Origin: Teichococcus rhizosphaerae
Lineage (GTDB): Bacteria; Pseudomonadota; Alphaproteobacteria; Acetobacterales; Acetobacteraceae
Length of the DNA: 40,325 nt
Assembly (NCBI RefSeq): GCF_002631185.1
Contig: NZ_PDNU01000046.1
Location: 1-40,325, forward strand
Direction of reading: 5' to 3'
The notes below the pieces were generated by a model, which saw only the letters and a list, made by a program, of their open reading frames with translations, ran no database searches and was not told the DNA's origin. The position numbers and the translations under genes are program-made. Shown in pieces: positions 2,469 to 32,610 of the stretch (position 1 is the first letter of the stretch; every line of letters begins with the position of its first letter).

Positions 2469-2490
2469 TTGCACAGATAGGATTGTGCAA
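2469..2490. repeat. Perfect 7-bp inverted repeat in the divergent traK-like/relaxase gap (candidate oriT or operator)
   Basis: TTGCACA at 2469-2475 and TGTGCAA at 2484-2490 are exact inverted copies separated by GATAGGAT. The 180-base gap between the leftward traK-like gene and the rightward relaxase operon is where oriT lies in many conjugative plasmids. The repeat could be the hairpin next to nic or the binding site of the small flanking proteins. No nic site could be assigned. Confidence 0.5.
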
Positions 2491-2623
2491 AGTTGTTGGC
2501 ATTGAGGTTGTGGTGACGGGACACAGACGCTACCCAGACGGGAAAGGGCTGGAGCGGCAATATCCCTACAGACCATTGCACCGCCGCTGGCAGTGCTGGG
2601 ACAGGAGCGGGACGAAAGCGGAC

Positions 2624-2923
2624 ATGGACGCGACACGACTGAGCCAGGAACTGGGGGCGCTGCGGGACCAGGTGAGCGCCCTGGAGGCCGGCCAGGACAA
2701 TCTGGTGCGGGCCATCGGCGAGTTGGCGCCGCTGCTCGGCACTGTCATCGAGGAGCTGCGCCTGCTCTCCCAGGCGGCCTCGGCGGAGGGCCCGGCCAGC
2801 GATCTCGGCCCGGAGTTGCGGCGCCTGGCGGAGGCGGTGGACGGCAACACCGCGGCGGTCACCGCGCTGCTGCGGCAGTTGCCGGTCTCTCCTGCCGAGG
2901 AGGGTGCAGGCCCGCCGGCATGA
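2624..2923 (+). CDS. Small coiled-coil protein upstream of the relaxase
   Basis: 99 aa from the ATG at 2624, with AGGAG about 20 bases and a GAAAGCGG stretch just upstream. The stop overlaps the relaxase start in an ATGA, so the two are co-translated. Residues 1-60 form a leucine-rich heptad pattern (LSQELGALRDQVSALEAGQ, then VIEELRLLSQAA) and a second amphipathic helix follows (ELRRLAEAVDGNTAAVTALLRQL). There is no membrane segment. The coupling and place suggest a relaxosome accessory protein that dimerises by coiled coil, comparable in position to MobC or TrwA, though it lacks an obvious ribbon-helix-helix. It could instead be a structural partner of the relaxase. Confidence 0.7.
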   Translation: MDATRLSQELGALRDQVSALEAGQDNLVRAIGELAPLLGTVIEELRLLSQAASAEGPASDLGPELRRLAEAVDGNTAAVTALLRQLPVSPAEEGAGPPA

Positions 2924-5900
2924 TGACCTTCCGGGCCGGTGCGCCCGGCGGCGTCGCCCAGGCGGCGGCCTACACCGCGCATCTGCTGGAGCGCACGATC
3001 GATCCGGCGCAGCAGGCGCTGGCTGACTACTACGGTCGGGAGAGTTCCTTAGACCCGGAGCGTTCTGAGGGGCTGGGCAGCACCCCCCGCCCCTCGCCGG
3101 TGATGGCGCCGGAGATGGCCAGGGCACTGGGGATCGATGCCAGCCGGCCGCTGACCGCCGCGGAGCTGGGCAACATCCTGGGTGGGCTGCGCGCCGATGG
3201 CGGCGCCATGCCGGGTCACCAGCGGGACCTGCGGACTTACCGGAACCGGGCGGGTCAGGCGGAGGGTGGGGGCGAGCGCAGCCGCATCGCCTGGATCGAC
3301 CTGACCTTCTCGGCGCCCAAGAGCGTCTCGGTAGCCTGGATGGCCGCTGGAACCGAGGCCGAGCGCCAATCCATCTACCAGGCGCACAAGGACGCGGTGC
3401 GGGAGGCGCTCGGCTATGTTGAGCAGGAGGTGGCCCGCGCCACCTTCGGGCATGGCCGCAGCGGCAAGGCCGAGGAGAGCGGCCGGCTCGGCTTTGTCTC
3501 CATCGACCACTTCACCAGCCGGCCCACCGTCGAGATCAGCCGGGCGGATCCGACTACCGGCGTGCAGGCCACCGAGATCTACAGCGTGCCGGTGGCCGGT
3601 GATCCGCAGCTGCACACCCACACCATCGTGCCGAACCTGGTGCTGACCCGCAGCGGAAGGGCGATGAGCATCGACACCACCCGCATCGCCGGGCGGGTGC
3701 ATGAGTTCGGCGCGGTCTACCAGGCACTGCTGGGGCGGAACCTGCGCCGCCTCGGCATGGCGGTGGAACTCGACGAGCGCACCCAGGCGCTGCGCCTCGC
3801 CGCCATCCCGGAGGAAATCTGCCGGGCATTCAGCAAGCGCACGGTCAATGGCGAGCGATCCGCCGAGGAGTGGGCGCTGCGCCACGGCTACAGCGCCGAA
3901 GCCTGGGCGGCGATGCGCCCGGAGCAGCGGATCGCCATGCTCAAGGCCGCGATCAAGGAAGGCCGTTTCGGCAAGGGCGACGACCTGGCCGATCTCGCCG
4001 CCTGGCGGGCGCAGACCGCCGAGCTCGGCTGGCAGTATTCCGGCAGCGCCGTGCGGATGGGGCCGCCGGCGCCGGAACGCAGCCAGCAGCAGCGGGTCGA
4101 GGATGCCCTCGCCGGGGCGACGCCGGTGCTGGAGAGCATGCTGGCGCAGCGCGCGGTGGTCACCGGCAGCGACCTACGGCTGGCGGCGGCGCGCGGGCTG
4201 ATCGCCGGCGGCATGGAAACGCTGGACGACCTGTCGGCGGTGACCCGCGCCATGGCCGAGGGTGGCGTGCGGCAGGATGGGCAGCGGACCGCCCTGTTGT
4301 TTCGTCCGGGCGTGTCCAGCCGGCCCGAGCGGGTGCAGGTGACCACGGCACTGCATCGCGACCAGGAGGCGGAGCTGATCGCCTTGGCCCGCACCGCACG
4401 GGCGCAGCCGGACGCAGCGCTGGCCCCTGCCCGCCTGGCGCAAGCCGCCGCCGCACGCGGCACGCCCCTGACCGAGGAGCAGCAACGCGCCGCCGAGGCG
4501 CTAGGGGCGGGGAACAAGTTCGCCGTGGTGGTCGGCGGTGCGGGAGTTGGCAAGACCACCATCCTGGCGCCGCTGGTGGAGGGGTGGAACGGCCAGGGGC
4601 GCGAGGTCTGGGGCACCGCGCTGGCCTGGCGGCAGGCCAATGCGCTGCAGGAGGCCGGGATCAGCGGCGCGCGCACCCTGGCGCTGGAGCCGCTGCTGGA
4701 TCGGATGGGGCGGCGGCCGCAGGATTTCGGGCCAAGCTCGGTGGTAGCGCTCGACGAGCTGGGCCAGATCGGCACCCGGCAGATGCTGCAGCTGCTGCGG
4801 CAGCAGGCGCAACTCGGCTTCAAGCTGGTGGCGGTGGGCGATGACCGGCAATGCCAGGCGATCGAGGCCGGGCCCACCATCGCGCTGCTGCGCCAGGCGC
4901 TCGGCCCCGAAGCCATTCCGGAGGTGCTGTCCACCGTGCGGCAGGCGACCGATCGCGAGCGCGCGATCGTCGGGATGTTCCGCGACGGCCGGATCGGTGA
5001 GGCGCTGGCCGCCAAGCGGGCCGAGGGCCAGGCGGAGCTGGTCCAGGGCGGCTACGAGGCGGCGGTGCGGCGCGCCGCGGCGCTGTGGGGCGAGCGCGTG
5101 GCGGCCAACCAGCAGGATCCGCGCTACAGCGTCACGGTGTCGGCGCCGACCAACCAGGACGCGCTGGCGGTCAGCCGTGCCATCCGCGAGGTGCGCCGGG
5201 CGTCAGGCCAGCTTGGTCCGGACCGCCTGACGATCGAGGCCAGCGATGCCACCGGCGCCAGCTACGCCCTGCCGCTGGCAGAGGGGGACCGGGTGCGGCT
5301 GTTCCAGCGCACCAGCCGCGCCGGGGCCGGTCGCGACACCATGATGGGCGAGAACGGCTCCGTCCTCACTGTGCGCGAGGTGCGGCCGGACGGGCTCAGG
5401 CTGGTGACGCGCGACGGCAAGGAAGGCTTTGTGCCCTGGAAGGGCTTTCGCGACCGCCGCAGCGGGCAGATCCGGCTGACCTATGGCGATGTGCTGACGA
5501 TCAACACCGCCCAGGGGATCACCAGCGACGAGCACATCCTGGCCATGCCGGCGGGCAGCCGCGGCGTCACCCTCTACGCCGCCCATGTCGGTGCCAGCCG
5601 GCATCGCGTGGCCAGCCACATCGTTGGCAGCCTCGGCGCCGAGGCACGCGAGGTCGAGGAGCACCGGCCGGTGAACGCGCCGAAGCTCACGGGCCAGGCG
5701 GCGCTGGATGCGGCCTGGGCCAATGTGGAGCGGAACTTTGGCCGCGCGCCGGTGAAGGACAGCGCGCTGGCGCTGCTCCGCCGGTTCCAGGACCTCTCGC
5801 AGAAGGCCCGCAACACCTTCCAAGAGGGCATGCGGCGGCGGCAGACGCGGCAGAAGGCGGAGCTGCCGGAAACGCGGCTTGTGCAGCGGGCGCGGGAGAA

Positions 5901-25751: not shown

Positions 25752-26657
25752 ATGGCCGACATTCACCGCCTGATCCTGACGCACGGTATCGACGAAGCCC
25801 GTCGGCAAGCCGCCAGTGCGCACGAGCGGGCGGTGGTCGAGGCGGCCTACCAGGTGCTCAGCGAGGAAACGGAGAGCATCGGGTTCACCTACTCGGGCTT
25901 CGCGCTGACCTCCCTGCCCCACAAGGAGCAGCAGGAGATGGTCTGGCGCCGCGAAAGCCACAACCTGAGCCTGGTACTGCAGTCCGGCACCGACCGCCTC
26001 GGCAAGGTCGTGGGGCTCCCCTACGGCTCCTACGCCCGCTTTATCCTGCTGTTCTTGCAAAGCGAAGCGGTCAAGACCGGCAGCCGCGAGATCGAGCTTG
26101 GCCGTTCCATGCAGGTCTGGCTCGGACGCATGGGCCTGTCGATCGGCGGCAACAGCTACCGGCTGGTGAAGGAACAGGCGAAGCGGATCTCGGTGTGCCG
26201 CCTCACCTTTTTCAGCATGAACGGCGACCAGGAAATCCTGCGGAACGGCGGCTTCGTCGAGGGGGCGATCAGCATGACGGGCATCAGCACGTCGCCCGAT
26301 CAGCCGTCCCTCTGGCAGGACAAGGTCCGACTGGACGAGGCCTTCTTCAAAGCGCTGCGCGACCATCCGGTGCCGGTGAGCGAAGGGGCGCTGAAGGCGA
26401 TCGGCCCGCGCTCCATGAGCCTCGATGTCTATATCTGGCTGGCCTACCGCCTGCACGCGCTGAAGCGGGACACCGACGTCACTTGGCCCGCGCTCTACGG
26501 CCAGTTCGGCGCCGGGTTCAAGCGCCTGCGCGCCTTCCGCGCCCAGTTCCTCGAGAGCCTGCAGCTGGCGCTGGCCGCCTATCCGGAGGCGCGGGTGACC
26601 GTGAACGAGGTCGGTGTGACCCTTCACCCCTCGCGCCCGGCCATCGCCAAGCTCTAG
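25752..26657 (+). CDS. repA: Iteron-binding plasmid replication initiator RepA
   Basis: 301 aa from the ATG at 25752 (MADIHRLILTHGIDEARRQA). The central blocks FTYSGFALTSLPHKEQQEMV, YGSYARFILLFLQSEAVKT, IELGRSMQVWLGRMGLSIGG and later RSMSLDVYIWLAYRLHAL fit the RepA C-terminal family (the plasmid-encoded RepA group) of theta-replicating plasmids. Iterons surround it: three direct and one inverted upstream, and one inverted and one direct downstream. It would bind these to open the origin and repress itself. An intrinsic terminator follows the stop. The gene looks intact and its codon use fits its neighbours. A 346-codon frame on the opposite strand is a shadow. Confidence 0.92.
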   Translation: MADIHRLILTHGIDEARRQAASAHERAVVEAAYQVLSEETESIGFTYSGFALTSLPHKEQQEMVWRRESHNLSLVLQSGTDRLGKVVGLPYGSYARFILLFLQSEAVKTGSREIELGRSMQVWLGRMGLSIGGNSYRLVKEQAKRISVCRLTFFSMNGDQEILRNGGFVEGAISMTGISTSPDQPSLWQDKVRLDEAFFKALRDHPVPVSEGALKAIGPRSMSLDVYIWLAYRLHALKRDTDVTWPALYGQFGAGFKRLRAFRAQFLESLQLALAAYPEARVTVNEVGVTLHPSRPAIAKL

Positions 26658-26772: not shown

Positions 26773-26969
26773 CCTGGCCTGCTGCGGACCGCCGCCTGCG
26801 TCCTGACGGCCCTCCGGCAGGACCTCGCCCAAAGCGCAGGGAGCGAATACTGTACAGCATTGGCCGGGCGTCCTCTTTCGGCTATTGTGTTGATTGCCAC
26901 TGAGAGCTGACCCGGGGTTGCCACGAGGATCTGACCCGGGTTGTGGATGCGGGTTTTTTTCAGATCCCG

Positions 26970-27113
26970 TCAGGTGGGCTGTGGTTTCCTTTCGCGATGG
27001 GCCTGGGTGGCGGAGCTGTTCCTGAAGCGGAAGCTGTCGTTGCCGGTCTCCAGGATGTGGCAGTGGTGGGTAAGCCGGTCGAGCAACGCCGTGGTCATCT
27101 TGGCATCCCCGAA
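26970..27113 (-). pseudogene. istB: Detached 3' end of istB
   Basis: On the minus strand the 144 bases encode [20 protein letters not shown] then [13 protein letters not shown] and a basic tail ending at the stop 26970-26972. This is the conserved C-terminus of IstB. It continues the istB gene that breaks off at 29691, about 2.6 kb away. Confidence 0.88.
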
Positions 27114-27157
27114 CATTCCGAGCTGCCCCTGATCTCGAACGCGTGGTGTCTGGTGTC

Positions 27158-27580
27158 ATGGTCACGGACCAGCGCCACCCGCTGTTTGGGCAGCAGCTGA
27201 GATTGCTGTCGCTGACCTGCGGCCGGGGTCCTGCCTTCGTGGCGGTGGCCCTGGCGGATGGGCGCCGCCGGCTGCTGAGGCGGGCGGAGACGGACCTGGA
27301 GCGGCCCCTGGCACCGGAGGCGGCGCTACCCCGCGTCTCGGCCCGCGCGTTGCTGCCACTGGCGCAGCACATTCGGGGCATGCTGGCCGTCTCCCGTCAG
27401 GAGGCGTCCCATGCCGAGTTCCCCGCATCCAGCTCGCCACGACCGACCAGCTTCGACGAGCCCTCCGCGATCCCGCCGGCGCCCATGCCCCGTGCTGCCG
27501 GCAACGACGCGGGCACAGTTGGCACGGCAACTGGCATGGGTGCTCCGGCGCGTCCGGGTCAGGGAGGCGGATCATGCTGA
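27158..27580 (+). CDS. DUF5372-like small protein of the recombinase element
   Basis: 140 aa from the ATG at 27158 (a GTG at 27143 is possible). The N-terminal half (VTDQRHPLFGQQLRLLSLTC followed by AFVAVALADGRRRLLRRAET) resembles the small DUF5372-type proteins found in front of large recombinases in proteobacterial elements: a His-Pro-Leu-Phe-Gly start and a beta-rich body. After about residue 95 the sequence turns Pro/Ser-rich and may be non-conserved. The stop overlaps the recombinase start (ATGCTGA). The role is unknown; it may be an accessory or directionality factor. The family call is from memory of the pattern. Confidence 0.65.
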   Translation: MVTDQRHPLFGQQLRLLSLTCGRGPAFVAVALADGRRRLLRRAETDLERPLAPEAALPRVSARALLPLAQHIRGMLAVSRQEASHAEFPASSSPRPTSFDEPSAIPPAPMPRAAGNDAGTVGTATGMGAPARPGQGGGSC

Positions 27581-27593
27581 CCCGGCCCGCTGA
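27411..27593 (+). CDS. Small basic ORF of the recombinase element
   Basis: 60 aa from the ATG at 27411, with AGGAGG six bases upstream, one of the best ribosome sites in the window. It is in a different frame from the gene it overlaps and its stop lies 20 bases inside the recombinase gene. The N-terminal part is Pro/Ser/Arg-rich; the C-terminal part (TRAQLARQLAWVLRRVRVRE) is a basic amphipathic helix. I judge it a real gene because of the ribosome site and the coupling; its function is unknown. Confidence 0.55.
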   Translation: MPSSPHPARHDRPASTSPPRSRRRPCPVLPATTRAQLARQLAWVLRRVRVREADHADPAR

Positions 27594-29661
27594 GGTGGCC
27601 GAGCGGGTGACCACGGCCCATCGCGCCAAGCTGGCCTATGTCTATATCCGGCAGTCCTCGGCGGGCCAGGTCCGTCAGCACCAGGAGAGCACGGAACTCC
27701 AGTATCGGCTGGTCGACCGGGCCGCCGGCCTTGGCTGGCCGCGCGAGCGGATCGCGGTGATCGACGACGACCTGGGCAAGTCAGGCGCCACCAGTGCTGG
27801 GCGGCAGGGCTTCCAGCACCTGATCGCCGAGATCGGCCTCGGCAAGGCCGGACTGGTCCTCAGCCTCGACGCGTCGCGGCTGGCCCGCAACAACCGCGAC
27901 TGGCACCAGCTGCTGGAATTGTGCTCCATCTTTGGCGTGGTCATCGCCGATGGCGAACGCCTGTATGATCCAGGTGCTTATCATGACCGCCTGCTGCTGG
28001 GGCTGTCGGGCATCATGAGCGAGGCGGAACTGCATCAGATCCGCCTGCGCCTGCACCAGGGCGAACGTCAGAAAGCCGCGCGCGGCGCCCTCCGCCTGCC
28101 GCAGCCGGCCGGGCTGGCCCTCGGGCCTGGTGGCGCGATCATGCTCAACCCGGACGAGGAGGTGCAGGCCCGCCTCCGGCTGGTGTTCAGCACCTTCCAG
28201 GCACTGCAGAGCGCCAAGGCGGTGATGCGGGAACTGCAGCGGCACGGCCTGGCACTGCCGGTCCGTCCGCTCCGCGGGCCAGGGCCGCACGAGGTGGTCT
28301 GGCGGCCAGCGAACAACGCGCGCGTGCTGCAGATCCTGCAGAACCCGGCCTATGCCGGCGCCTACGTCTATGGCCGCCATCGCCACGACCCTCTGCGGCG
28401 CCGTGCCGGTGCACCCCATCCTGCTATCATCAGGGTTCCGGTCGAGCAGTGGCCGGTGTGCCTGCGCGACGCTCATCCAGGCTATATTGGCTGGGAGGAG
28501 TTCATGGCCAACCAGAGGCGCCTGGCCGGCAACGTGGCCTCACACGCGGCGGAACGGCCGGGGGCGGCGCGGCGCGGTTGGGCATTGCTGCAGGGCATCG
28601 CGGCCTGCGGCCGCTGTGGCCGGCGCATGGCGTTGCGGTACTCCGGACCGCATGGTGACTTCCCGCTCTACCAGTGCAGCGCGGATCAGGCCCAGGATGG
28701 CAGCCCGCGTTGCCAGGAGGTGCGGGCCCTGCTGGTGGATGCGGAGGTCGAGCGCCTGCTGCTCGAGGCCCTGGCGCCGGACCAGATTGCCCTGGCGGTC
28801 GCAGCCATCGACGACCTTGATGAGGATACCCGGCTGCTGGAACGGCAATGGGCGCTCAAACGCGAGCGCGCCCGGTACGAGGCCGAGCGGGCGCGCCGGC
28901 AATACGATACGGTCGAGCCGGAGAACCGCCTGGTCGCCCGCTCGCTGGAACGGGTCTGGGAGGAGAAGCTGCGTCAGGTCGAGGTGGTGGAGCAGGAGTA
29001 TGAGGCCTGGCGCCGCAACCAGGGCGCGCCGATAAGCGAGGCCGACCGCTCAGACGTCCTTGCCTTGGCACGAGACCTGTCCCGCGTGTGGCAGTCCGCG
29101 GAGGCGCCGGAGCGCAAACGCATCACACGCCTGGTCATCCGCGATGTCGCGCTGGATCAAAAGCGCGAGCAAGGTGTGGTCTGGCTGCGGATCTCCTGGC
29201 AGAGCGGCGCGATAAGTGAGCACCGCGTGCAGCGCCGGGTGCGGTCCTACGCCGATTGCGCGGACCCGGCTCTGCTGGAGCGACGCATCCGCGCATTGAA
29301 CGCAGCCGGCAAGATGGACCACGAGGTGGCGTCCATCCTCAACGCGGAGGGCATCGTGTCGGCCCGTGGAGCGCCGTTCCTGCACGGCACCGTGCACCTG
29401 CTGCGCAAGCGATGGGGAATCCGGAGCGCCAAGATCAATGGTGACGCCGCCAACCCAGTACGCTGGCCGGACGGCAGCTACTCGATCCGGGGCGCCGCCG
29501 CGGCAGTCGGCGTCACGGCGCAAACGGTGTTCGGCTGGCTCCGGAAAGGCTGTCTGCAAGGGCAGCAGCTGGCGAAGGGCCAACCGTGGCAGATCCACCT
29601 GACCAGTGAGCAGATCGCTGTCCTGCGGCAACAGGTGCGACGCACCAGACGATCCAAATAG
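27574..29661 (+). CDS. Large serine recombinase
   Basis: 695 aa from the ATG at 27574, with AGGGAGG seven bases upstream. The resolvase domain begins with AYVYIRQSSAGQVRQHQEST; Ser28 is the expected nucleophile, with Arg26 and downstream DASRLARNNRDWHQLLELC as active-site parts. The recombinase domain spans about 170-330. A zinc ribbon has CGRCGRRM near residue 345 and later cysteines in YQCSADQ and SPRCQEV. A coiled coil (ERARYEAERARRQYD) follows, then a C-terminal helix-turn-helix (YSIRGAAAAVGVTAQTVFGW) rarely seen in this family. It catalyses insertion and excision by a phosphoserine intermediate. The gene appears intact, so the element could still be active. Confidence 0.93.
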   Translation: MLTRPAEVAERVTTAHRAKLAYVYIRQSSAGQVRQHQESTELQYRLVDRAAGLGWPRERIAVIDDDLGKSGATSAGRQGFQHLIAEIGLGKAGLVLSLDASRLARNNRDWHQLLELCSIFGVVIADGERLYDPGAYHDRLLLGLSGIMSEAELHQIRLRLHQGERQKAARGALRLPQPAGLALGPGGAIMLNPDEEVQARLRLVFSTFQALQSAKAVMRELQRHGLALPVRPLRGPGPHEVVWRPANNARVLQILQNPAYAGAYVYGRHRHDPLRRRAGAPHPAIIRVPVEQWPVCLRDAHPGYIGWEEFMANQRRLAGNVASHAAERPGAARRGWALLQGIAACGRCGRRMALRYSGPHGDFPLYQCSADQAQDGSPRCQEVRALLVDAEVERLLLEALAPDQIALAVAAIDDLDEDTRLLERQWALKRERARYEAERARRQYDTVEPENRLVARSLERVWEEKLRQVEVVEQEYEAWRRNQGAPISEADRSDVLALARDLSRVWQSAEAPERKRITRLVIRDVALDQKREQGVVWLRISWQSGAISEHRVQRRVRSYADCADPALLERRIRALNAAGKMDHEVASILNAEGIVSARGAPFLHGTVHLLRKRWGIRSAKINGDAANPVRWPDGSYSIRGAAAAVGVTAQTVFGWLRKGCLQGQQLAKGQPWQIHLTSEQIAVLRQQVRRTRRSK

Positions 29662-29686
29662 GAGGTATCATGATGTCATCGGCTCT

Positions 29687-30330
29687 CCGAAGATCGCCGC
29701 CCACTCACTGAAACTGAGGTTGGTGGTGATGATGACGCTGGTCTGCTCGTAGAGCTTGCTGAGCAGGTGGAACAGCAGGGCACCCCCTGAGGCGCTGAAC
29801 GGCAGGTAACCCAGCTCGTCGAGGATCAGCAGGTCGGCATGGAGCAGGCGGGTGGCGATCTGCCCGGCCCTTCCGGCGGCTTTCTCCTGCTCGAGCATGT
29901 TGACCAGCTCCACCGTGGAGAAGAACCGCACCCGCTTGCGGTGATGCTCGACGGCCTGGACGCCGAGCGCGGTGGCCACGTGGGTCTTGCCGGTGCCTGG
30001 CCCGCCGACCAGCACGATGTTGTCGGCGCTGTCCATGAAGGCACCGGCGTGGAGCTGGCGCACCAGGGCCTCATTGAGCTGGCTGCTGGTGAAGTCGAAG
30101 CCTGTCAGGTCCTTGTAGGTGGGGAACCGGGCGGCCTTGAGCTGGTAGGCGATGGAGCGGACCTCGCGCTCGGCGAGCTCGGCCTTGAGCAGCTGCGACA
30201 GGATGGGGATCGCGCTCTGGAAGGCAGGCGCGCCCTGCTCCGTCAGTTCGGCCGCGGCCTGCGCCATGCCATGCATCTTGAGGCTGCGCAGCATGATGGT
30301 GATGGCGGCGGCCGCCGGGTCATGACGCAT
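29687..30330 (-). pseudogene. istB: istB, 5' part, split by the recombinase element
   Basis: The start is the ATG at 30330; the frame runs on past the insertion to a stop at 29668. It encodes the AAA+ helper ATPase of IS21: Walker A VGGPGTGKTHVATALG, Walker B LLILDELGYLPFS, and sensor VIITTNLSFSEWAAIFG, after which the native reading is lost. The product would be 221 aa and would lack the last 48 residues, which lie at 26970-27113. IstB normally activates the IstA transposase and selects targets. The start overlaps the end of istA by 11 bases. Confidence 0.9.
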
Positions 30331-31848
30331 GGCGGCCTCCCTGCCTTGGGCGCAGGCTGTCGTAACGGGCGACGTTGGCCTTGGGCTCCTGCGCCAGCAC
30401 CAGGGCCTGGGGCGCCTCGATCGGCGGCACCTGGGAGGTAGCCCCATCGGTCAGCCGGTGCAGCAGGTTGAGGATGTGGGTCTTGCTGGCGACACCGGCC
30501 TGCAGTGCCATCTCCACGGCGACCAGCACAGCCTGCTCGTCGTGCTGCAGCACCAGGGAGAGGATCTCCACCATCTCCCGGTCGCCGCCGGACCTGCCAT
30601 GCAGCTGACGCTGCAGCTGCCGGAACGCCTCTGGCAGTTCGGCGAAGGGTGCGCCGCTGCGCAGGGCGCCGGGTTTGCGCTGGACCACAGCCAGGTAGTG
30701 CCGCCAGTCGTAGACGGTCCGGCCCTGGCCGTGGTGCGACCGCTCGATGATCCGCTGGTGCTCGCAGACGACAGCTCCCTCCGCCACCACCAGGATGCGG
30801 TCGGAATAGATCCGCAGGCTGACCGGCCGGTTGGCGAAGGAGGCGGGCACGCTGTAGCGGTTGCGGTCGAAATGCACGAGGCAGGTGGCGAGACCCGCTT
30901 GGTCTCCTCCACGAAGCCGTCGAACACCCGCCGGACCGGCATCAGGCAGTCCACCTCCTGCCGCCAGGCCGCGGCGACGCTGCCGGGCTCCACCCCGTGC
31001 GGGATCTCCTCCCAAAGGGTGAGGCAGCGTTGCTCCAGCCAGGCGTTCAGCGCCTCCAGGCTGGCGACCTGGGGCATGGGCTGCCACAGCCGGTGCCGGG
31101 CGTCCCGGACGTTTTTCTCGACTTGGCCTTTCTCCCAACCTGACGCCGGATTGCAGAATTCAGGCTCGAACAGATAGTGGCTCGCCATGGCCAGGAAACG
31201 GGCGTTGACCTGCCGCTCCCGGCTCGGGCCGATGCGGTCCACGGCGGTGCGCATGTTGTCGTAGATGCCGCGCCGCGGCACGCCACCCAGCACGCGGAAG
31301 CCGTGGTTGTGGGCGTCGAACAGCATCTCGTGCGTCTGCAGCAGGTAGGCCCGTACCAGGAAAGCCCGGCTATGGCAGAGCTTGAGGTGGGCGACCTGCA
31401 GCTTGGTCCGCTCGCCGCCGATGACGGCATGCTCCTCGCTCCAATCGAACTGGAACGCCTCGCCCGGGCCAAAGGCCAGCGGCACGAAGACACCGCGGCC
31501 GGAAGTCTGCTGCTGGCGCTGCCAGTCGTCCCGCCAGGCCCGCACAAAGGCAGCGACCCGCCGGTACGAGCCATCGTAGCCGAGCCCCACCAGATCGGCG
31601 TGGAACTGCCGCGCGGTGCGTTTCTGTTTGCGTGACCTGCGGGCGTCCGTCCGCAGCCAGGCGGCCAGCCGCTCGGCAAAGGGATCCAGCTTGCTGAGGC
31701 GGTTAGGGGTCCTGAAAACAGGCTCCACAGCCTCGGACCGCAGGTACTTGCGAATGGTGTTCCGCGACAGGCCGGTCCGGCGGGCGATCGCGCGGATCGA
31801 CAGGTGCTCCCGGAAATGCCAGCGCCGGATAACGCTCAACAACGCCAT
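30320..31848 (-). pseudogene. istA: istA transposase, frameshifted
   Basis: From the ATG at 31848 (MALLSVIRRWHFREHLSIRA, an HTH of the IS21 type) the frame includes the DDE core: Asp in FQFDWSEEHAVI, Asp in RRGIYDNMRTAVD and Glu in WEKGQVEKNVRDARHR. Near 30,890 the frame shifts after EETKRVSP; the rest, TCLVHFDRNRYSVPASFANR to the stop at 30320, is in another frame. One lost base in TCGCCACCTGCC explains it: 1529 plus 1 bases give 510 codons, the normal IstA length. Not functional. Confidence 0.88.
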
Positions 31849-31961
31849 GTCCAACACTCCCGCTGCCCCCGCCCAAAAGGCCGAGGCTAGCGTCCGAACA
31901 TGGGTCAACTCTCAGTGGCAACTTCACCCCAAACCGGGTCAGCTCTCAGTGGCAATCAACA

Positions 31962-32610
31962 GGATGACGCCCGGCGGAACCAGCGCGCCTCCATCGAGGG
32001 GTGCCTGGCGGCCGTCGCGCAACTGTTTGACCATCCCATCTTTCAGCGGACCGACCACGTGTCGGTGGACGACTTCCTGTCGACGTCTATGCGGCTGGAT
32101 TTGAGCAAGCTGCCGGACGACATCCGCTTCATCGCCACGGAGACGCTGCTGCGGAAGCTGTTCCGGGTGCTGCGCCTGAAGGGGCCGATCCCGGTCCAGC
32201 CGGCCGACGACCGTCAGCGCTTCCGTCTGTTCGTCATCATCGATGAGGCCAAGATCCTGGGCCTCGGCGGCGGCGACCGCGACCGCTCCGACAACATCCT
32301 GAACGAACTCATCACTGAAGCCCGGAAGTTCGGCCTAGGCATGGTGCTGGCGTCCCAGATGAGCGACCATTTCAGCGAGGAGGTGCGGGCTAACGCCGCC
32401 ACATGGCTCGTGCTGAAGCCGATGGACATGAAGGAGGCGAAGCGCAACGCGCCGAACGTGTCGGTCGATCCGCAGGATCTGCTGCAACTCGCCGGGCGGG
32501 GTGACGGCTACTACCGGGATCGTCCGTCGAGCCGCGCGCGGCGGATCCAGGTCACGTCGCTCTCGGCGCTGGAGCGCGCGGTTGCCGAGCCGGTGACGTC
32601 GAAAGACTGA
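31962..32610 (+). pseudogene. 3' part of a HerA/TraG-like ATPase gene, cut by IS21
   Basis: About 215 codons follow the IS21 end and stop at 32610. Visible blocks are FIATETLLRKLFRVLRLKGP, the Walker B RLFVIIDEAKILGLGG, then ITEARKFGLGMVLASQMSDH and ANAATWLVLKPMDMKEAKRN, and DPQDLLQLAGRGDGYYRDRP. This order (Walker B, then a GMVLASQ sensor and an Arg-rich tail) fits HerA/VirD4-type hexameric ATPases with a role in DNA movement. The Walker A half is not found on the left side of IS21, so it was lost when the flank was rearranged. It differs from both coupling proteins in the window. Confidence 0.7.

Follow-up and report, generated by a model that had tools for sequence, protein, structure and literature searches.

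Large serine recombinases (LSRs) are characterized by a common domain order, an attP site with inverted arms, a 2-bp core and conservative integration. An element of this kind was found in positions 1 to 40,325 of contig NZ_PDNU01000046.1 of Teichococcus rhizosphaerae (the whole stretch analysed, hereafter the window), where it interrupts the istB gene of an IS21-family insertion sequence. It is very probably an integrated LSR element that uses a conserved IS21 istB codon as host attachment site. Integrases such as phiC31 and Bxb1, from phages and integrative elements, are alike in domain order, inverted attP arms, 2-bp core and conservative integration into a coding gene; in comparison, the window element has only three small genes, without phage or conjugation genes, and it targets a gene belonging to a different mobile element, entered at the same codon in very divergent versions. 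Group II introns home into insertion sequences by RNA-based retrohoming and are self-splicing. They are also small selfish elements landing in another mobile element, whereas here DNA recombination leaves istB broken. The mechanism is ordinary for the enzyme family; what appears to be new, judging from the open literature searched, is the targeting of conserved codons in other mobile elements.

In the available part of an LSR survey (PMC10083194), a multi-targeting clade with DUF4368 and relaxed T/A-rich sites is described. As in that clade, closely related enzymes enter several different genes here, but the targets are mostly one homologous codon and not relaxed T/A-rich sites, and no DUF4368 was found in the window recombinase among Pfam matches at E ≤ 0.001. 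The words "istB" and "IS21" are absent from the survey's main text. The closest systems in idea are the helper-embedded phage-inducible chromosomal island (PICI) satellites, in which, judging from the available part of PMC10111431, an integrase clade repeatedly targets and is embedded in genes of another mobile element. Those satellites lie in prophage late genes and carry replication genes, whereas the window element lies in IS21 istB and has three genes, none of them a satellite gene; neither a late-gene location nor a PICI gene set was thus found. Similarity of the recombinase to XisF, CcrA and CcrB of NCBIfam is weak (51.5, 24.3 and 20.5 bits, curated cut-offs 375, 700 and 900). Among the open-literature matches listed, no title or abstract beginning reported LSRs targeting istB or transposase genes, and the word DUF5372, the family to which the first gene of the element is related, was in no paper of the open literature searched.

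The element looks like a parasite using other mobile DNA as a landing site, and illustrates how simply a selfish element can settle inside a second one and probably immobilize it. With its relatives it supplies precise natural attP/attB pairs for compact serine integrases meeting one codon in 34 distinct sequences, which bear on site tolerance versus site selection by these enzymes.

Insertion in istB of an IS21 element

The minus-strand istB of the window consists of two pieces 2.6 kb apart, within the following arrangement:

26888..31961, minus strand: IS21-family element hosting the insertion, about 2496 bp without the insert, with 28-bp identical inverted ends
26970..27107, minus strand: C-terminal half of istB, opening at an Asp codon (GA, which is TC on the plus strand), 45 codons and a stop
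27574..29661, plus strand: gene 3 of the element, a 695-aa LSR (Resolvase, Recombinase and Zn ribbon) with an intact frame
29686..30330, minus strand: N-terminal half of istB, terminating in ...SEWAAIFG

The pentamer CCGAA occurs at 27109-27113 and again at 29687-29691, with a spacing of 2578 bp, and once 2578 bp are excised the joined flanks read as one open IstB frame. The N-terminal half alone scored 229.9 bits against the curated IS21 istB model NF038214 (cut-off 200). The genome also carries an uninterrupted IS21 (G000:C56:21402-23679 and neighbouring bases); it is 94-95% identical to the window IS21, both its IstA and IstB frames are open and it has no insert, so that it represents the empty site. 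The insertion of the element into istB is therefore real, and confirmed. An earlier reading of this DNA, made from the sequence only, had claimed a precise insertion within istB with the frame restored by removing 2578 bp, a span of 27109-29691, and a compact three-gene serine-recombinase unit with ends defined to the base. All of this holds: the span is exact for the two CCGAA copies, and the element length stays at 2578 bp. The empty istB site that it proposed to look for is the C56 copy. The same copy excludes the possibility, named there as one that would overturn the claim, that IS21 istB naturally ends at FGEPMTS, as the C56 IstB continues past the break as FGDAKMTT.

The recombinase matched PF00239 (66.4 bits), PF07508 (46.4 bits) and PF13408 (30.2 bits), all above cut-off and in the domain order of LSRs. 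An N-terminal serine is catalytic in serine recombinases, and in the segment YVYIRQSS (residues 22-29) Ser28 aligns with a Ser of 3guv. The 695-aa frame is open, in agreement with the claim of an intact recombinase, and the enzyme of the window copy may well be active.

By alignment to the IstB of IS5376 (8q3w), with an offset of 3 assumed from the sensor I Asn199 of the corresponding paper, the break falls after Gly210. Sensor I Asn199 and a conserved sensor II Arg237 are described for IS5376 IstB in the available part of PMC11208146. Since Arg237 is located beyond the break, the truncated IstB lacks its C-terminal AAA+ part, and a loss of IstB function is likely. According to the same part of that paper, IstB is required for strand transfer, and ATPase mutants of IstB retain activity to differing extents.

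Compared with the intact C56 copy, the window istA has single-base indels at 30887, 31701 and 31710, and its frame is broken at 30887. With this frameshift the window IS21 could move only if helped by another copy, and it is probably dead without such help. No target-site duplication was seen beside the IS21 ends (26884-26887, 31962-31965). The istA frameshift also bears on the idea that the element is a switch, which would control IS21 through regulated gene integrity by leaving istB on a signal and thereby repairing it. Core excision would leave istB in frame, and the two small genes that share an operon with the recombinase could supply direction, but a restored istB alone would not revive an IS21 whose istA is frameshifted, and a switch is considered unlikely.

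Recurrence at one istB codon

A bacterial genome scan gave 79 loci, from the best 80 of 90 stretches, and 16 plasmid records were added out of 138 with DNA matches, 12 of the 16 being near relatives. Removal of duplicates and distant relatives left 85 loci for the table, including the window; L001, L003, L024, L028, L044, L052 and L108-L114 (duplicates or non-element stretches) and loci lacking any segment of at least 54% identity had been left out beforehand. A script that looked for an istB half with its break exactly where the codon was predicted placed 71 of the 85 loci at the istB codon. One of these, L085, was a false call (an IS630-type gene), leaving 70, and L064, L082 and L094 were added by eye, for a total of 73/85. 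Both junctions were called in 39 istB loci. Five loci lie in other genes, three of them read as transposases, and seven were left without an assigned target. No usable ends were obtained from L054, L101, L079, L088, L090, L098 and L104. Because relatives occupy this codon in istB genes that are very unlike one another, the insertion is far beyond chance. An isolated accident as its origin was rejected on the basis of the 85 tabulated loci. The usual target of the whole clade is istB, in either orientation, a point absent from the sequence-only reading.

The five other targets were assigned with unequal certainty. L084 lies in a DDE_3 transposase, whose C-terminal half scored 76.2 bits (profile positions 42-145) and whose N-terminal half scored 15.4 bits, below cut-off (positions 1-37). 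L085 is in the same kind of gene by its likeness to L084, Pfam itself giving nothing. The host gene of L030 is presumably an IS5-type transposase, from its motifs; its 28-aa C-terminal half had no match in Pfam. The host gene of L074 encodes a HerA-like ATPase, with a score of 22.8 bits (cut-off 22), and L089 lies where a Usp-like gene begins (15.4 bits, under the cut-off).

These loci cannot be counted as independent, since eight of those in istB come from Rhizobium altiplani contigs, in some cases perhaps the two sides of a single insertion, and many belong to Bradyrhizobium. The left istB flanks of R. altiplani are of at least four kinds, and so are the right ones. The 12 near relatives on plasmids (61-68% identity), fetched after the ends had been defined, all fit the istB codon (12/12). 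Both junctions were called by the script in five of them and only one end was readable in six; in the remaining one, L125, one junction was called by the script and the other by eye. Two wider genome samples, in which only few candidates were scored per genome, gave matches at E ≤ 1e-150 in 2/385 and 1/398 genomes, counting the own genome each time. The one new genome from these samples (L146/L147) has istB at the site too. In an order-level sample, 22/299 genomes matched at E ≤ 1e-60, with near relatives only in the own genome and G285.

L103 is counted as an istB locus by its left end, and its full-length recombinase is distant (35%). At 2475-5700 of this stretch there is what looks like a degenerate element targeting istB; a second, distant serine recombinase lies downstream of it and adjoins IS66-like sequence. 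The left end seems to belong to the degenerate element. A second, distant serine recombinase (38% identical) was also observed at 10900-12843 of L049, in the same stretch as an istB-inserted element.

Attachment arms and crossover core

The ends of the element are arranged as follows:

27106..27107, no strand: left copy of the 2-bp crossover core TC, position inferred from relatives
27108..27137, plus strand: left attachment (att) arm (CCCGAACATTCCGAGCTGCC...), including the left CCGAA, conserved in relatives
29654..29683, minus strand: right att arm (...AGGAGGTATCATGATGTCATCGGC), an imperfect inverted copy of the left arm
29684..29685, no strand: right copy of the core TC, position inferred from relatives

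The right CCGAA, at 29687-29691, belongs to the istB sequence. Read on the istB strand, the core is GA, the first two bases of the Asp codon in the FG|D motif. Relatives whose istB targets have other sequences at the site retain only these 2 bp (TC/GA) in common between their junctions. Relatives antisense to istB have, with variations, left ends [TC]nCCGAACA.. and right ends ..TCATCGGC[TC], and those in the sense orientation left ends [GA]nCCAAGCA.. and right ends ..ATCATyGGT[GA]. The case is clearest in Mesorhizobium sophorae L056 and L058, where istB reads Phe-Pro-Asp at the site (CCCC or TCCA there). Their left junctions are CCC-GA-ACCC or CCA-GA-ACCC and their right junctions CGGT-GA-TCCC or CGGT-GA-TAAG; the bases before the left GA and after the right GA are istB and the remainder is element, so only GA is common to both. 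The antisense forms L029 (left CCCGAG, right CACGAA) and L035 (left ACCGAA, right CGCGAA) likewise have 2 bp common to both ends. Cores called by the script were TC/TC in 26 loci with istB antisense and GA/GA in eight with istB sense, and 34 distinct attB sequences were found among 35 rebuilt.

The attP arms are inverted and imperfect, with a mean of 12.5/22 matching positions over 37 elements versus 5.6 when shuffled. The ends of the window element match at 11/22 positions, so the statement that such elements lack terminal repeats does not apply here. Inverted attP arms around a 2-bp core common with attB, as in LSRs, are therefore present, the core being placed by comparison with the relatives. 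CCGA repeats in both arms and looks like a recognition motif. The run of CCGAA in the window would then arise because CCGA adjoins the core in the element arms and in istB alike. From these alignments, the crossover core is probably the 2-bp TC, and CCGAA a motif beside it.

The sequence-only reading had taken CCGAA itself as a 5-bp core. The pentamer is identical at both window junctions, and the preceding base differs. However, the ends of L029, L035, L056 and L058 have 2 bp, TC/GA, and no more in common, and CCGA is present in both attP arms, so that it resembles a recognition motif; a 5-bp core is very unlikely.

An integrated element with a 2-bp core at the istB codon would have formed as follows. 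A circular 2578-bp form would carry attP, made of the right arm ending ATGTCATCGGC, the core TC and the left arm beginning CCCGAACATTCC, so that the circle junction would read ..ATGTCATCGGC-TC-CCCGAACATT... The recombinase would pair this attP with attB in istB (..TTCGGn-GA-nnCC.. on the istB strand), cut both sites at the 2-bp core and rejoin them without gain or loss. This would leave istB in two pieces, the N-terminal part stopping at the Gly before the part that bears sensor II. Reversal may depend on a directionality factor as helper, a role that perhaps falls to one of the small genes.

Several observations weigh against this interpretation. The run common to the two window junctions is CCGAA, preceded by C on the left and T on the right, and with TC as the core that C is element and that T is istB. 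C56 has C at this istB position, a synonymous difference within a pair otherwise 5-6% diverged, so the T must be a change in the window istB copy. The window alone cannot decide the core. The two ends have unequal cores in L036 and L061 (AA/GA) and in L115 (TT/TC), and L034 is flanked by two istB C-terminal halves and L075 by two N-terminal halves, the cores being TC throughout, which would fit joining of one end in the wrong polarity. The match between core letters and orientation is not independent proof, because the target codon largely dictates the core letters at the junction; this agreement was dropped as a test of the core rule for being largely circular. Five of the 78 assigned loci are outside istB, with L074 and L089 not in a transposase, and the identical R. 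altiplani copies may be an assembly collapse.

Cores other than GA/TC were also found. L059 has AA at both ends, in an Asn codon, and AA, TT and CT occur on single readable ends (L043, L064, L074, L069). In the R. altiplani stretches L038, L040, L042, L044 and L047, otherwise identical copies vary between T and C at the fourth base inside the right core.

Orientation, movement, gene content and distant relatives

In a quick tree of 104 recombinase rows, 72 of them in the near clade, istB orientation was clustered, the sense label requiring 7 changes versus a shuffled mean of 21.7. The L049 row was built from the second, distant recombinase of its locus and falls among the distant rows. Orientation follows the tree, yet it has switched several times. 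L048 is inserted antisense with TC and its sister L119 is sense-oriented (fork support 98, SH-aLRT); their arms have one difference in 35 left bases and one in the last 20 right bases. This pair offers a natural test of the rule by which the core dinucleotide determines direction.

The mobility claimed for the element was borne out for the family. In M. sophorae, two large contigs carry three copies of the element without a single difference in the 2624 bp from core to core, the few base differences counted between the copies falling in the flanks. Of the istB flanks, only 263-291/450 bases agree on the N side and 78-80/140 on the C side. Identical copies in three different istB genes of one Mesorhizobium mean that the element moves. 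The same copies speak against the genes being a resident passenger of the IS21 lineage (a compound IS21) and not independently mobile. The element does sit inside IS21, and in the one-contig genome of L146/L147 its 3' part and the istB flank are present twice, 99.9% identical over 2778 bp, which indicates that element and IS21 were duplicated together. An element-free IS21 copy is nevertheless present in the window's own genome, both orientations occur, and IS630- and IS5-type transposase genes are entered too, all of which makes a passenger origin hardly probable. Placement of the recombinase by an assembly join or a homologous recombination accident can be practically dismissed, as the frame is restored base-exactly and the same structure occurs in many other assemblies, including complete plasmids, even if the genome is a draft of 113 contigs. 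Two Agrobacterium vitis genomes have identical recombinases, with istB halves of one type in L105 and of two types in L045, which suggests recombination between copies.

Two small genes precede the recombinase:

27143..27580, plus strand: gene 1, 145 aa, DUF5372-related, predicted as a small barrel and a helix
27411..27593, plus strand: gene 2, 60 aa, in the +1 frame relative to gene 1, whose tail it overlaps

Both frames are conserved in relatives, and the stop of gene 1 overlaps the recombinase start (ATGCTGA in the window). The proposed DUF5372-like gene was upheld as to relationship, but the window protein scored 17.6 bits against PF17342, under the gathering cut-off of 25. Of four near relatives scanned, L039 (28.9) and L070 (26) pass and L031 (21.4) and L083 (13.7) fail, and scores are strong in the distant relatives L127 (81.8 bits) and L128 (92.9 bits). 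The gene 1 model (mean pLDDT 75.5, pTM 0.40) is confident at residues 1-50 and about 67-90. Among the best 50 matches of a fold search against solved structures, none reached E ≤ 0.001 (best E 0.044); they include SH3 domains, ribosomal proteins and photosystem I subunits, and no function was drawn from them. The gene 2 frame is without early stops in 16/17 sequences, the window included, and is visibly conserved; a spurious overlapping frame was rejected on this ground. Both small genes, which share the operon, are perhaps candidates for the recombination directionality factor. In its own genome the element was found once; a further, weak match (27% identity, E 7.5e-5) is a different recombinase-like stretch.

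Targets of distant relatives were found by looking, not by a census, in 25 stretches, one of which (L144) is a close relative. Both halves of the host gene were found in four and one half in two, and the host gene was not assigned in 18. L127, on an Aromatoleum plasmid, splits istA, with an N-terminal half ..KPQDKAK bearing rve and a C-terminal half KAKVEV.. bearing Mu-transpos_C_2. In L132 the split gene is the reverse transcriptase of a group II intron (RVT_1 profile 1-82 and 77-204), in L138 an IS66 transposase (..LRGIAKG / RKNALFAG..), and in L009 istB at another place, the P-loop (..LLVGE / GTGKTH..). Half-sites in IS3 orfB at DYN were found by pattern search, on the N side only in L142 and on the C side only in L140. 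Transposase frames flank L128 and L130 on one side only (L128 below the Pfam cut-off), L129 was read by eye as IS5-type with no match in Pfam, and L093 seems to adjoin an ordinary gene.

Opinion is evenly balanced on whether DUF5372-type LSR elements, including the distant members (33-41% identical), are dedicated hyperparasites that repeatedly evolve attachment sites in conserved codons of mobility genes. The sites would be FG|D and the P-loop in istB, DKAK|VE in istA, G|RKN in IS66, DYN in IS3 orfB and RSF|FDSVD in the group II intron reverse transcriptase, besides IS630- and IS5-type transposases. Mobility genes would offer a plentiful, dispensable and travelling landing site, and every insertion would break the host element. 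Orientation would be set by the 2-bp core and not by the arms, so that a core change would flip it.

Near the IS21, a RepA_C-type plasmid replication gene is located at 25752-26657 of the window, from which the contig is probably plasmid-borne.

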